Made by a program: the position numbers and the translations under genes. Positions 29,525-35,859 of a stretch of 64,000 nucleotides of DNA are shown here, piece after piece. Position 1 is the first letter of the stretch, and each line of letters starts with the position of its first letter. The notes beneath the pieces were generated by a model. That model did no database searches. It was not told where the DNA came from and was given only the letters and a program-made list of their open reading frames with translations. Source of the DNA: Pelagibius sp. CAU 1746 (lineage in GTDB: Bacteria; Pseudomonadota; Alphaproteobacteria; Kiloniellales; Kiloniellaceae); NCBI RefSeq assembly GCF_039839785.1, contig NZ_JBDOQT010000001.1, positions 3,038,001 through 3,102,000 of the forward strand, in the 5' to 3' direction.

Positions 29525-30907
29525 ATGCCAATCGAAGTTCTCATGCCGGCGCTCTCGCCCACCATGACCGAAGGCAAGCTGGCCAAATGGCTGAAGCAGG
29601 AAGGCGACGAGGTATCGTCGGGCGACATCCTGGCCGAGATCGAAACCGACAAGGCGACCATGGAAGTGGAAGCCGTCGACGAAGGGGTGCTCGGCAAGAT
29701 CATGGTGCCGGAAGGCACCGACGCCGTGCCGGTGAACCAGGTGATCGCCGTGCTGCTGGAGGACGGCGAGGACGCCTCCGCGATCTCCGAGGCCCCCAAG
29801 AAGGCCGAAGCCAAGCAGCCGGACCCCCAGGCCAAGGAAGCCCCCAAGGAGGAGTCCGGCAGGACCCACGCCGCGCCGCCGAAGGAACCCTCGCCGGAGG
29901 CGGAGCCGGAGTGGACCGGCCCCACCGTCACCCAGACGGTGCGCGAGGCCCTGCGCGACGCCATGGCCGAAGAGATGCGCGCCAACGACCGTGTCTTCCT
30001 CATGGGCGAGGAGGTCGCCGAATACCAGGGCGCCTACAAGGTCAGCCAGGGCCTGCTCGACGAGTTCGGTGCCCGGCGCGTGGTGGACACGCCGATCACC
30101 GAGCACGGCTTCGCCGGCCTGGGCGTCGGCGCGGCCATGTACGGCCTCAGGCCCATCGTCGAGTTCATGACCTTCAACTTCGCCATGCAGGCCATCGACC
30201 AGATCATCAATTCAGCGGCCAAGACACACTACATGTCCGGCGGCCAGGTCTCCTCGCCGATCGTGTTCCGCGGCCCCAACGGCGCCGCCGCGCGGGTCGC
30301 GGCCCAGCACTCCCAGTGCTACGCCTCCTGGTACGCCCATGTGCCGGGCCTCAAGGTCGTGGCACCCTATTCGGCGGCCGACGCCAAGGGCTTGCTGAAA
30401 TCCGCCATCCGCGACGACAACCCGGTCATTTTCCTGGAGAACGAGATCCTCTACGGCCAGAGCTTCGACGTGCCGGACAGCGCCGACTGGACCGTGCCGA
30501 TCGGCAAGGCACGCATCGCCCGGCCGGGCAAGGACGTCACCATCACCGCCTTCTCGATCATGGTCGGCAAGGCGCTGGAGGCGGCGGAGAAGCTGGCGGA
30601 GGAAGGCATCGACGCGGAGGTCATCGACCTGCGCAGCCTGCGCCCCCTGGACAGCGAAACCATCATCGCCTCGGTGCAGAAGACCAACCGCCTGGTGACC
30701 TGCGAGGAAGGCTGGGGCTACGCCGGCATCGGCTCGGAAGTCGCCTCGGTCGTCATGGAACAGGCTTTCGACTGGCTCGACGCACCGGTCAAGCGGGTCT
30801 ACGGCGCCGACGTGCCGATGCCCTACGCCGCCAACCTGGAAGCGCTGGCGCTGCCGCAGGCCGACACCATCGCCGCCGGCGCCAAAGAAGTCTGTTACCG
30901 CGGCTGA
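29525..30907 (+). CDS. pdhB: pyruvate dehydrogenase E1 component, beta subunit, with N-terminal lipoyl domain
   Basis: A 460-residue fusion: residues 1-79 are a lipoyl domain with the modified lysine K43 in [11 protein letters not shown], followed by an Ala/Pro/Glu-rich linker (about 85-130) and the transketolase-type E1 beta core from about 137 ([20 protein letters not shown]) to the end. Lipoyl domains on E1 beta are known in alphaproteobacteria. The lipoyl domain is almost the same as that of PdhC, with a 50-base identical DNA run. GGAGGGG precedes the ATG. Confidence 0.97.
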
Positions 30908-30931: not shown

Positions 30932-32281
30932 ATGCCGATCAATATCCTGATGCCGGCGCTTTCGCCGACCATGACCGAGGGCACGCTGGCCAAGTGGCTG
31001 GTCAAGGAAGGCGACGAGGTGACCTCGGGCGATGTCATCGCCGAGATCGAAACCGACAAGGCGACCATGGAAGTGGAAGCCGTCGACGAGGGCACCGTGG
31101 GCAAGATCATGGTCGCCGAAGGCACCGACGGGGTGCCGGTGAACAAGGTCATCGCCGTGCTGCTGGAAGAGGGCGAGGACGCCTCGGCCATCGCCGAAGC
31201 GCCGGAGGCGCCCGCGCCAAAGTCCCCCGAAGTCGAAGCGGCGAAACCCGCGGCCGCCGGCAACGGCGTCACCCCGCCGACGGTCAATCCCCAGGTCACC
31301 GACGCGGTGACCCAGAGCGCCACCCCCGCGCCGGCAGCGTCTTCGGGACCCGAGGGCCGCGTCTTCGCCAGCCCGCTGGCCCGGCGCATCGCCAAGGACA
31401 AGGGCGTCGACCTGGCGGCGCTCAAGGGCAGCGGCCCGCACGGCCGCATCGTCAAGGCCGACGTCGAGGCCGCCCCGAAGAGCATTGGGCCTGGCGCCGC
31501 CGCGCCGGCGGCCGCCGCGGCTCCGGCGGCAACACCAGCTGCTGCGGCTCCCGCCGCCGCGGGCCCCGGCGCCAAGGCACTGGCCGACATGCTGGGCATG
31601 GCCTACACGCAGGAGCCGCTCAGCGGCATGCGCAAGACCATCGCCAAGCGCCTCACCGAGTCCAAGCAGCAGGTACCGCACTTCTATCTCACGGTCGACT
31701 GCGAGCTGGACGAACTGCTGAAGGTCAGGAAGGAGCTGAATAGCCGCTCCGACGCCTACAAGATCTCGGTCAACGACTTCGTCATCCGTGCCGTCGCCCT
31801 GGCCCTGAAGCAGGTGCCGGCGGCCAATGCCTCCTACGACGAGTCCGGCCTGCTGTTCTACGAGCACGCCGACGTCTCGGTGGCGGTGGCGACCCCCTCG
31901 GGCCTCATCACGCCGATCATCAAGGCTGCAGAGGGCAAGGGCCTGGCGGCCATCGCCAACGAGATGAAGGACCTCGCCGGGCGCGCGCGCGACGGCAAGC
32001 TGAAGCCGGAGGAGTACCAGGGCGGCACTTTCTCGGTCTCCAACCTCGGCATGTTCGGCATCAAGGAGTTCTCCGCCGTCATCAATCCGCCGCAGGGCTG
32101 CATCCTGGCGGTGGGTGCCGGCGAGCAGCGTCCGGTGGTGAAGGACGGCGCGCTGAGCGTCGCCACGGTGATGAGCTGCACCCTCTCGGTCGACCACCGC
32201 GTGGTGGACGGCGCGGTCGGAGCGGAGTTCCTGGCGGCCTTCAAGAAGCTGATCGAGGATCCGCTTTCCATGCTGCTGTAG
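30932..32281 (+). CDS. pdhC: pyruvate dehydrogenase E2, dihydrolipoamide acetyltransferase
   Basis: Core of the PDH complex; transfers acetyl from lipoamide to CoA. Domains of the 449-residue protein: lipoyl 1-79 (K43), flexible linker, peripheral subunit-binding domain about 145-178 (FASPLARRIAKDKGVDL), Ala/Pro linker, catalytic CAT-like domain about 226-449 with the active-site histidine in TLSVDHRVVDGAVGAEFL. GGGGGAGGAA lies ahead of the start. Lipoate for K43 would come from LipA, encoded further down. Confidence 0.98.
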   Translation: MPINILMPALSPTMTEGTLAKWLVKEGDEVTSGDVIAEIETDKATMEVEAVDEGTVGKIMVAEGTDGVPVNKVIAVLLEEGEDASAIAEAPEAPAPKSPEVEAAKPAAAGNGVTPPTVNPQVTDAVTQSATPAPAASSGPEGRVFASPLARRIAKDKGVDLAALKGSGPHGRIVKADVEAAPKSIGPGAAAPAAAAAPAATPAAAAPAAAGPGAKALADMLGMAYTQEPLSGMRKTIAKRLTESKQQVPHFYLTVDCELDELLKVRKELNSRSDAYKISVNDFVIRAVALALKQVPAANASYDESGLLFYEHADVSVAVATPSGLITPIIKAAEGKGLAAIANEMKDLAGRARDGKLKPEEYQGGTFSVSNLGMFGIKEFSAVINPPQGCILAVGAGEQRPVVKDGALSVATVMSCTLSVDHRVVDGAVGAEFLAAFKKLIEDPLSMLL

Positions 32282-32310: not shown

Positions 32311-32934
32311 ATGCGACGCCTGCTGGTACTCCTGTTCCTCCTGCTGCCGCTGCCCGCGGCGGCCGAGCCGCTCGACGACGTGAAGGAGAGCTTCCTGGCC
32401 TACAAGGTCGCAATCCTGGAAGCCGACGGCGAGGCGGCGGCCAGTGTCGTCACGCAGAACTCGCGGGACTACTTCCGCAACCTGGCGAATCACGCGCTGA
32501 CCCTGGACCGCGCCGGCCTGCATGAAATTCACCTGACCGACCGGCTCTACGCCATGCTGCTGCGCCACAACCTGGACCGCACTCAACTGCAGCAAATGTC
32601 TGGCGATCAGATCGTCTCCTATGCGGTCGATCACGGCTGGATCGGCCGCAGCGGCGCTTCGCAGCTTCGGCTCGGCCACTATCAGATCGAAGGCGACCGC
32701 GCCAGCGGCACCATCCTGCGGCCGGACGGCCTCAAGAGTGCCTTCAAGATGGAGTTCGTGAGGGAAGGCGGCAAATGGCTGCTCGATCTTGTCGCCCTGA
32801 TGGACCTGACCCGGACCGCCTTTGAGTACTCCGTCCAGCAGTCCGGCCTCGGCGAAGACGAATTCGTCCTGCTGATGCTGGAGCAGGGCACCGGCGTGAA
32901 GCCCGGCCCCGAGATTTGGGATCCGCCGTCATGA
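32311..32934 (+). CDS. secreted protein of unknown function, paralogue 1 of 3
   Basis: 207 residues with a signal peptide (MRRLLVLLFLLLPLPAAAEP, cleavage near A18-E19). The mature part starts with a helix FLAYKVAILEADGEAAASVV of the kind that opens NTF2-like domains, and shares LLRHN, MSGDQIVSYAV and the C-terminal GPEIWDPPS with the next two genes. I do not recognise the family. It is 29 bases after pdhC and overlaps the next gene by four bases (ATGA), so it is part of the PDH transcript and translation is coupled. The signal peptide points to the periplasm while PDH is cytoplasmic. Confidence 0.8.
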   Translation: MRRLLVLLFLLLPLPAAAEPLDDVKESFLAYKVAILEADGEAAASVVTQNSRDYFRNLANHALTLDRAGLHEIHLTDRLYAMLLRHNLDRTQLQQMSGDQIVSYAVDHGWIGRSGASQLRLGHYQIEGDRASGTILRPDGLKSAFKMEFVREGGKWLLDLVALMDLTRTAFEYSVQQSGLGEDEFVLLMLEQGTGVKPGPEIWDPPS

Positions 32935-33560
32935 GCCTGCGTTCCCTCATCGTTGCCTTCTTGTTGCTGGCCGCCGCGCCGGTCGAGGCGGCGCCGCAGG
33001 ACAATGTGTCGGCAACCTTCGCGGCCTACCAGGCCGCCCTGCTGGCGACCGACGGCGAAAAGGCGGCGGAAATCGTCACGCAGGGCTCGCGCGACCTCTA
33101 CCGGCACTACGCCAACCAGGCTTTGACCCTCGATCATGCGGCCCTCAACCGCGTGCACATCGCCGATCGCCTGACCATCCTGCTGCTGCGCCACAGTGTT
33201 GAGCGCGAGCGCCTGATGCAGATGAGCGGCGGCGACATCATCGCCTACGCGGTGGAGCAGGGCTGGATCAGCAAGGAAGGCACCGCCGGTATCCGGCTTG
33301 GCAATTTCCAGGTGGCCGGGGACCTCGCGACGGGGGCACTGCTGCGCACCGACGGCAGCGAGACTCCCTACAGGGTCGAGTTCCTCAAGGAGGACGGCGA
33401 CTGGCACCTGAACCTGAAGAAGATGCTCGAGTTTGCGCGCATCGGGATCGAGTACGCGGTTCAGCAGGCCGGCATGTCGGAAGACGAGTTCATCCTGACC
33501 TTGCTGGAATACTCCACGGGCAAGAAACCCGGGCCGGAGATCTGGAACCCGCCGTCATGA
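32931..33560 (+). CDS. secreted protein of unknown function, paralogue 2 of 3
   Basis: 209 residues from ATG 32931, which overlaps the stop of the previous gene as ATGA; an ATG five codons earlier is possible. Signal peptide MSLRSLIVAFLLLAAAPVEA. It is visibly close to paralogue 1 along its length (VTQGSRDLYRHYANQALTLD versus VTQNSRDYFRNLANHALTLD; EYAVQQAGMSEDEFIL versus EYSVQQSGLGEDEFVL) and ends GPEIWNPPS. The next gene starts inside its stop codon. Confidence 0.8.
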   Translation: MSLRSLIVAFLLLAAAPVEAAPQDNVSATFAAYQAALLATDGEKAAEIVTQGSRDLYRHYANQALTLDHAALNRVHIADRLTILLLRHSVERERLMQMSGGDIIAYAVEQGWISKEGTAGIRLGNFQVAGDLATGALLRTDGSETPYRVEFLKEDGDWHLNLKKMLEFARIGIEYAVQQAGMSEDEFILTLLEYSTGKKPGPEIWNPPS

Positions 33561-34204
33561 GCCTGCGTCTCGTCATCGCAACCCTGCTGATACTGCTGGC
33601 CGCGCCGGCCGCGGCGCAGTCCGACCCGGCGGCGGTTGCGCAGAGCTTTGCCGCCTACAAGCAGGCGCTGATCGACGGCGACGGGGCCAAGGCCTCGGCG
33701 CTGACGTCCTCGGATACCCATGCCTTCCTGAAACAGACCTTGGATCGGGCGCTGACCATGGAGGCGGACGAGGTTCAGGCCCTGCCGCTGCTCGACCAGA
33801 TCTCAGTGCTGATGCTGCGCCACAACATGAAGGCCGAGCAACTGCGCGAGATGAAGGACGGCGATCCCGTCGCCTACGCGGTGAACCAGAGAGCCTTCGA
33901 CATGAACGAGGTGGAGAAGCTGGAAGCCGAAGGCTTCACCATCAACGGCGACGACGCTCAGGCGCCGATCTCCAACCTCAAGGGCTCGCCGATCCCGGTC
34001 AACGTGCATTTCAAGGAAGAGCAGGGCACTTGGCGCTTCGATCTGCTGTCCTCCATCGCGCCGTTCCGCGCGGTCTTCGACGCCCAGGCGGGCATGCTCA
34101 GCGCCCTGAAGTCGAAGGACGGCAGCAATGGCGCCGTACCCTTGATCATTCACCTGATCACCGGCCGCGCGCCGGATCCCAACATCTGGAACCCGCCGGG
34201 ATGA
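33557..34204 (+). CDS. secreted protein of unknown function, paralogue 3 of 3
   Basis: 215 residues, signal peptide MSLRLVIATLLILLAAPAAA with cleavage before QSDP. More diverged than the other two but alignable: SFAAYKQALIDGDGAKASAL, MLRHNMKAEQLREMKDGD, VAYAV, and the end DPNIWNPPG. Its last third carries an insertion (SALKSKDGSNGAVP). It closes the translationally coupled triplet; a REP-like element and then lpd follow. Confidence 0.8.
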   Translation: MSLRLVIATLLILLAAPAAAQSDPAAVAQSFAAYKQALIDGDGAKASALTSSDTHAFLKQTLDRALTMEADEVQALPLLDQISVLMLRHNMKAEQLREMKDGDPVAYAVNQRAFDMNEVEKLEAEGFTINGDDAQAPISNLKGSPIPVNVHFKEEQGTWRFDLLSSIAPFRAVFDAQAGMLSALKSKDGSNGAVPLIIHLITGRAPDPNIWNPPG

Positions 34205-34263
34205 GGCAGAGGCATTCACTCGTTACCCGCAGGAAATGCGCACCACCGGACACCTCGGGGCTG

Positions 34264-34420
34264 TCGTCCCGGCACTTGATGCCGGGACCCAATGCCCTCT
34301 CCGCAGCCGAGGCCGTGGTGGTATTCCTGAGCATGGCAGGCGAGACCGAGAACGCAAAATCGCGGGACTGTGCAATGCACGACCGGCAATGGGTCCCGGG
34401 GTCAAGCCCCGGGATGACAA
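34264..34420. repeat. REP-like palindrome pair flanking a 106-base spacer
   Basis: TCCCGGCA-CTTGA-TGCCGGGA (34267-34287) and TCCCGGGG-TCAAG-CCCCGGGA (34394-34414), in head-to-head orientation and flanked by GTCrTCCCGG / GGGACCCA sequences. This is the common alphaproteobacterial extragenic palindrome. The spacer between them shows no gene. It sits in the 251-base gap before lpd and may end or stabilise the upstream part of the transcript. Confidence 0.8.
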
Positions 34421-34455
34421 CGGAGTATGGCTTCCGGGCCTAGAGGAGAGCTTTT

Positions 34456-35859
34456 GTGGCTGATACGAATTTCGATCTCATCGTCGTCGGCGGCGGACCG
34501 GGCGGCTACGTGGCGGCGATCCGCGCCGCGCAGCTGAAAATGAAGGTCTGCGTGGTCGAGAAGGCGCACCTGGGCGGCATCTGCCTCAACTGGGGCTGCA
34601 TCCCGACCAAGGCGCTGCTGCGCTCTGCGGAGATCTACCACTACATGCAGCACGCCGATGCCTACGGCCTCACCGCCGGCAATGTCGGCTTTGACGCCGC
34701 CAAGGTCGTGGCGCGCTCGCGCGCCGTCTCCAAGCAGCTCAACGGCGGTGTCGGCCATCTGCTGAAAAAGAACAAGGTCACCGTGGTCGACGGCGAGGCC
34801 AAGCTGAACGGCCCAGGCAAGCTGGTGGTGACCAAGGACGGCAAGAAGGTCAGCGACCTGACCGCCAAGCACATCATCCTGGCCACCGGCGCGCGCCCGC
34901 GGGCCCTGCCGGGCATCGAACCGGACAAGAAGCTGATCTGGACCTACTTCGAGGCCATGGTGCCCGAAGCCATGCCGAAGTCGCTGCTGGTCATCGGCTC
35001 GGGCGCCATCGGCATCGAGTTCGCCTCCTTCTACCACACCATGGGCGTGGACGTGACGGTGGTCGAGGTCATGCCGCAGATCATGCCGGTGGAGGATGAG
35101 GAGATTTCCAAGCTGGCCCGCAAGCAGCTTGAGAAACGCGGCCTCAAGATCATGACCGAGGCCAAGGTGACGGGCGTCAAGAAGGGGACCAACAACGTCA
35201 CCGCCACCGTCGAGGACAAGGCCGGCAAGAAGTCCGAGATTACCGTCGACCGCGTCATCTCCGCCGTCGGCGTGCAGGGCAACATCGAGGACCTCGGCCT
35301 GGAGACCACCAAAGTGAAGACCGACCGCGGCTGCATCGTCATCGATGAATACGGCGGCACCGCGGAGCCCGGCATCTATGCCATCGGCGACGTGGCCGGG
35401 CCGCCCATGCTGGCCCACAAGGCTGAGCACGAAGGCGTCATCTGCGTCGAGAAGATCGCCGGCCTGAACGACGTCCACCCCATGAAGAAGGAGCAGATCC
35501 CCGGCTGCACCTACTGCCACCCGCAGGTGGCCAGCGTCGGCCTGACCGAGAAGAAGGCCAAGGAGGCCGGCTACACGCTGAAGGTCGGGCGCTTCCCCTT
35601 CATCGGCAATGGCAAGGCCATCGCCCTGGGCGAGCCCGACGGCATGGTCAAGACCGTCTTCGACGCCAAGACCGGCCAGCTTCTGGGCGCCCACATGGTG
35701 GGGGCCGAGGTGACGGAGCTGATCCAGGGTTACGTGGTGGCCATGGGGCTGGAGACCACGGAGGCCGAGCTGATGCACACGGTCTTCCCGCATCCGACCC
35801 TCTCCGAGATGATGCACGAGTCGGTGCTTGACGCCTACGGCCGCGTCATCCACATGTAG
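34456..35859 (+). CDS. lpd: dihydrolipoamide dehydrogenase (E3)
   Basis: FAD enzyme that reoxidises dihydrolipoamide of PDH (and possibly of other 2-oxoacid complexes). The GTG start has GAGGAG ahead. In the 467-residue protein the FAD motif is VVGGGPGGYVAA, the redox disulfide is C43/C48 in GGICLNWGCIPTKA, the NAD site VIGSGAIGIEFASF, and the C-terminal TVFPHPTLSEMMHE holds the catalytic His-Glu. It follows pdhABC after the three unknown genes and a REP element. Confidence 0.98.
   Translation: MADTNFDLIVVGGGPGGYVAAIRAAQLKMKVCVVEKAHLGGICLNWGCIPTKALLRSAEIYHYMQHADAYGLTAGNVGFDAAKVVARSRAVSKQLNGGVGHLLKKNKVTVVDGEAKLNGPGKLVVTKDGKKVSDLTAKHIILATGARPRALPGIEPDKKLIWTYFEAMVPEAMPKSLLVIGSGAIGIEFASFYHTMGVDVTVVEVMPQIMPVEDEEISKLARKQLEKRGLKIMTEAKVTGVKKGTNNVTATVEDKAGKKSEITVDRVISAVGVQGNIEDLGLETTKVKTDRGCIVIDEYGGTAEPGIYAIGDVAGPPMLAHKAEHEGVICVEKIAGLNDVHPMKKEQIPGCTYCHPQVASVGLTEKKAKEAGYTLKVGRFPFIGNGKAIALGEPDGMVKTVFDAKTGQLLGAHMVGAEVTELIQGYVVAMGLETTEAELMHTVFPHPTLSEMMHESVLDAYGRVIHM

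Follow-up and report, generated by a model that had tools for sequence, protein, structure and literature searches.

We begin by considering the NTF2-like superfamily, which includes SnoaL, ketosteroid isomerase and SgcJ/SgcE6. It has been surveyed (PMC3924330), and a passage of that survey describes a motif common to the whole superfamily as absent. The three proteins considered here are predicted to resemble this superfamily in a helix-first alpha+beta layout and in a sheet with a G-x-W-x-x-D hairpin. Their genes (P1, P2 and P3) lie inside a pyruvate dehydrogenase (PDH) operon of a marine bacterium of the genus Pelagibius, in a stretch of 64,000 nucleotides that is called the window below. 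The features of the locus are collected in Table 1.

Table 1. Features of the pdhC-lpd slot, in window coordinates
Feature	Coordinates	Strand	Remark
pdhC, dihydrolipoyl acetyltransferase E2, upstream slot border	30932..32281	+	79-92% identity in 8 genus genomes
P1, secreted paralogue (predicted), probable NTF2-like fold, type A, 207 aa	32311..32934	+	P. marinus orthologue 82% identical
P1 signal peptide, MRRLLVLLFLLLPLPAAA-E, predicted cleavage	32311..32364	+	from sequence; AF2 pLDDT about 55, residues 1-20
20-bp stretch CCGCCGTCATGAGCCTGCGT, P1/P2 junction	32923..32942	+	identical copy at P2/P3 junction
ATGA stop/start overlap P1/P2	32931..32934	+	
P2, secreted paralogue (predicted), probable NTF2-like fold, second type A copy, 209 aa	32931..33560	+	
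Second 20-bp CCGCCGTCATGAGCCTGCGT copy, P2/P3 junction	33549..33568	+	
ATGA stop/start overlap P2/P3	33557..33560	+	
P3, secreted paralogue (predicted), probable NTF2-like fold, type B, 215 aa	33557..34204	+	found in 8/8 genus genomes
P3-lpd spacer, two palindromes	34205..34455	.	P. marinus: 28 bp
lpd, dihydrolipoamide dehydrogenase E3, downstream slot border	34456..35859	+	

An earlier note on this DNA had described three translationally coupled genes between pdhC and lpd, and both junctions are indeed exact ATGA overlaps. The length of P2 is counted from its ATG, while the listed open reading frame of 214 aa begins at an upstream TTG. Because only 29 bp (with a GGGGGA ribosome-binding site within) separate the end of pdhC from the start of P1, and no promoter- or terminator-like sites are seen between pdhC and lpd, the three genes would be co-transcribed with pdh, and their co-expression with PDH is very likely. 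They may then be translated as a coupled block from the pdh mRNA. No Rfam RNA is found in the slot. The 251 bp between the end of P3 and the start of lpd hold a pair of GC-rich palindromes (GTCCCGGCA..TGCCGGGAC and CCCGGGGTCAAGCCCCGGG), and this spacer measures about 250 bp in one other Pelagibius genome (G019, locus L023) against the short form of P. marinus (L021). The palindromes look like an insertion of a dispersed palindromic repeat; the palindrome words tested have no further copies in the window. Upstream, pdhB (29525-30907) is an E1-beta/lipoyl fusion; in relatives its N-terminal lipoyl-type domain cross-matches the pdhC one with an identity of about 79-85%.

All three proteins end in P-x-I-W-(D/N)-P-P and have LRH and YAV in common. 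The motifs listed in the earlier note therefore stand with one exception, the M-x-GD block, which has to be written M-x-(x)-G-D...YAV because P1 reads MSGD and the other two are one residue longer there. P1 and P2 (50% identical) are closer to each other than to P3 (30% for P1-P3), as that note had it. The signal peptides that it recognised also bear inspection, since all three N-termini are hydrophobic and end in AxA-type sites. P1-P3 contain no cysteine and thus no lipobox, and from their sequences they would be periplasmic. The genes are real because they are conserved in eight genomes and evolve under purifying selection (dN/dS 0.18-0.19 against P. marinus). In the alignment of all homologues (A5), the invariant and near-invariant residues include R85, E152, W156 and D159 of P1. 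These do not suggest an obvious catalytic set, and no conserved polar set in the family points to a ligand or a reaction.

Within the genus, a set of eight genomes in which G017 is P. marinus, the family is found between pdhC and lpd without exception. It is present as a single type B copy in three genomes (G016, G020, G022), as one copy each of A and B in four (G017, G018, G019, G021), and as three copies only in the genome of the window, the only one with P2 alongside a P1 copy. Type A never occurs without type B. This genus-wide retention beside pdh is what the earlier note had expected, and so is the conservation of the IW-PP end within the genus; since single-copy genomes keep that end too, it is not merely a relic of duplication. 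The proposal of a local amplification with retention of all three copies fares worse. In the trees, P1 groups with the type A genes of G017 and G019, while P2, a long branch whose exact placement is unsure, stands apart, either beside the A copies of G018 and G021 (support 94/89 with an outgroup) or without a resolved position. The AU test does not reject the grouping of P2 with the G018/G021 A copies (p=0.35), and it rejects both P1 and P2 as sisters, that is, a recent duplication in the window genome (p=0.0012), and the grouping of these two with the A copy of G017 (p=0.019). Therefore either P1 and P2 had already duplicated before P. marinus split off and later lost P2, or P2 arrived by transfer. 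As the genus keeps one, two or three copies, all three are not generally needed. A candidate fourth paralogue elsewhere in the genome (C1:1501257, a weak match) overlaps an MlaC gene and was discarded. The copy number would shift between one and three by duplication and loss, plausibly driven by unequal recombination between the repeated gene junctions. The repeated CCGCCGTCATGAGCCTGCGT is a possible substrate, and recombination there would drop one gene and leave the overlap intact.

The family appears to be undescribed, as the earlier note had supposed. No Pfam or NCBIfam model exceeds its cut-off for P1-P3 or for 30 homologues, a sequence profile search of the PDB gives no match over threshold, scans of viral and plasmid sequences find no relatives, and the literature searched holds no description. 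What is now defined is a family of secreted proteins that has no Pfam or NCBIfam model.

Where else does the family occur? A single-sequence scan of GTDB contigs finds P. marinus as the sole match, and a profile search of 53 other genomes of the order finds no relative. Further away, 58 of the 82 genomes of one alphaproteobacterial family in the order of G110 (f58, probably Azospirillaceae) give a match, and most of the 58 have a full-length homologue, which is single-copy and secreted (E 1e-32 to 1e-67 for most). The Pelagibius and f58 profiles align with an E-value of 7e-25 over 174 columns, that is, over the full length. These relatives differ from the window proteins in lying away from pdh and in having no IW-x-PP end. 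In several f58 genomes (L138-L143, L147) the relative is adjoined by GGDEF/PAS, DUF2336, weakly J-domain-like and pentapeptide proteins; the neighbourhood is near ffh-rpsP-rimM-trmD and dapD/dapE in several genomes and differs in others. In another class (G775) the relative is fused, as the N-terminal domain, to Sel1 repeats (L133:1483-2922), again without the IW-x-PP end and not at pdh. Weak matches in G763, G797 and G702 (E 1e-4 to 7e-4) are partial, fall within other proteins and were rejected. The earlier note would have counted scattered, single or unsecreted relatives against its reading, and this holds by half: the relatives outside the pdh slot occur singly, at a distance from pdh and without the IW-PP end, and those of f58 are still secreted.

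A second lineage occupies the same slot. In a genus of a distant order (g141; genomes G173 and G439), two secreted paralogues, coupled by GTGA or ATGA, lie between pdhC and lpd. This pair first surfaced as a weak match (E 0.002). Comparing profiles with hhalign, the mature part of A5 and the alignment of the g141 pair (A6) give an E-value of 5e-9, and a Pelagibius-only set against A6 gives 3.4e-11, both values being single comparisons that are uncalibrated on a database; column shuffles (probability <0.4%) and a reversed control all stay below 1%. Taken singly, each of the four g141 slot proteins aligns over 138-144 columns and scores better than all of 146 unrelated proteins. Homology of the pair to the Pelagibius family over the first 150 mature residues is thus well supported. 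The g141 proteins differ in being about 90 residues longer (291-303 aa) and in ending in LAWW-x-x rather than IW-x-PP, and one member of the pair has a sub-threshold match to SnoaL_2 (E 0.0022). With f58 sequences only, hhalign does not connect the set to the pair, and the g141 proteins seem nearer to the Pelagibius slot proteins than to those of f58. The family may have arisen once in the slot and been lost many times since, or it may have entered the slot by transfer, through recombination in the conserved genes on either side. Transfer of the whole pdh block is disfavoured for the G173 pair, since the pdhC and lpd of that genome, at 69% and 67%, match the window's genes no better than those of other distant families do.

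The next question is whether the position in the pdh operon has a meaning. One answer, which we regard as quite possible though short of probable, is that the operon is strongly expressed and tolerates insertions between pdhC and lpd, and that the family exploits its transcription as accidental cargo with no tie to PDH. We measured the region downstream of pdhC in 59 other alphaproteobacterial loci. It spans at most 200 bp in 41 of them and more than 200 bp in 18, which mostly contain unrelated genes, identified by eye as cupin, SDR, VOC, chorismate mutase, DUF29-like and GNAT; the sampled sister genera have an empty slot of 15-40 bp. Together with the f58 and G775 relatives far from pdh, these findings speak for cargo and against a link to PDH. 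On the other side, a rare family known from four lineages occupies this slot in two, each time as coupled tandem secreted paralogues, and the position is kept throughout Pelagibius. Because the distant second lineage has coupled relatives in the same slot, the placement is probably not due to chance, and the g141 pair likewise speaks against the accidental link that the earlier note had allowed for. A role in physiology related to pyruvate or acetyl-CoA, rather than a ride on pdh transcription, can be held only tentatively. We think it unlikely, as a bolder extension, that the genes form a periplasmic arm of the pdh operon, in which coupled sets of NTF2-like binding proteins in two distant lineages would link the handling of a ligand to pyruvate oxidation. 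In any case, two distant lineages have the family at the same position of an operon that encodes a central enzyme complex of the cytoplasm. A functional link would tie a periplasmic process to pyruvate oxidation; otherwise the locus would show cleanly how a core operon can offer a permissive slot to cargo genes. As a separate observation, some slot occupants, all identified by eye, recur: a cupin-like protein of about 120 aa is found across several alphaproteobacterial families (L046, L051, L072, L099), VOC-like proteins are seen in L093 and L094, and SDR-like ones in L045 and L052.

A different proposal, made in the earlier note, is a heteromeric complex, here taken as a putative obligate assembly of A-type with B-type proteins. 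Consistent with it, the genes are coupled by ATGA or GTGA wherever a genome has more than one copy, type A is never seen in the genus without type B, and the g141 lineage likewise has two diverged paralogues. However, type B stands alone in three Pelagibius genomes and the f58 relatives are single, so the protein must be able to function as a monomer or homomer, and we consider an obligate heteromer doubtful.

We turn to the predicted fold, where the earlier note had suggested an NTF2-like domain. The AlphaFold model of P1 (from 30 sequences) has a pLDDT of 90.6 and a pTM of 0.83, and that of P3 (from 14 sequences) a pLDDT of 86.5. Foldseek places SgcJ/SgcE6, ketosteroid-isomerase-like and designed NTF2 entries at ranks 1-6 for the P1 model with probabilities of 0.97-0.99, the top PDB matches being SgcJ (4ovm), SgcE6 (4i4k), 3hx8 and a designed NTF2 (6w3f), followed by PBP2a. 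Structure prediction thus ranks NTF2-like domains at the top and agrees with the suggestion, though the best E-value is 0.0085, with none below 1e-3, and the query-normalised TM is 0.26-0.33. The top entries are mostly NTF2-like, and the order of elements in the model, N-terminal helices and then the sheet, is that of the NTF2-like cone. The IW-x-PP tail of P1 is predicted to be ordered (mean pLDDT about 94). On these models an NTF2-like fold of the family is highly probable. That the proteins are instead putative MlaC/Ttg2D-like periplasmic lipid carriers, with an NTF2-like core and a helical part shuttling phospholipid or another apolar ligand, is very improbable, since the secretion, the similar mature length and the best PDB match of a first model (the MlaC/Ttg2-type 8dte, probability 0.87, E 0.013) are set against a better model that puts MlaC types 18th (probability 0.6) after NTF2-like folds, PF05494 matching none of 30 members, and hhalign giving 14-26% probability over about 50 columns against the genome's own two MlaC proteins, which are encoded elsewhere, away from P1-P3.

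The reading that we prefer, and hold to be modestly probable as a whole, is that P1-P3 are NTF2-like binding proteins that work in the periplasm and are co-expressed with PDH. They would be soluble, cysteine-free members of one unnamed family, each built as an NTF2-like alpha+beta cone into which a helical segment is inserted (in P1 roughly residues 49-107), with an IW-x-PP tail that is ordered. Each would most likely act in the periplasm as a non-enzymatic or weakly enzymatic module for a small ligand, its binding being putative.

Among known systems, MlaC/Ttg2D (PF05494) shares with the family secretion, a similar size and, by fold search, an NTF2-related core. The commonest weak NCBIfam match, Rv0361_Cterm (NF051431; seen in 13 of 30 members, with an E-value of 0.0038 at best), reaches 15-16 bits with the window proteins, where the cut-off is 37, and spans the signal peptide and the first helices alone. 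P1-P3 give no significant Pfam or NCBIfam model or sequence match to the NTF2-like clan. They differ from this superfamily in being secreted, in a mature length of about 190 residues, in the extra helical insert before the sheet and in the IW-x-PP tail.
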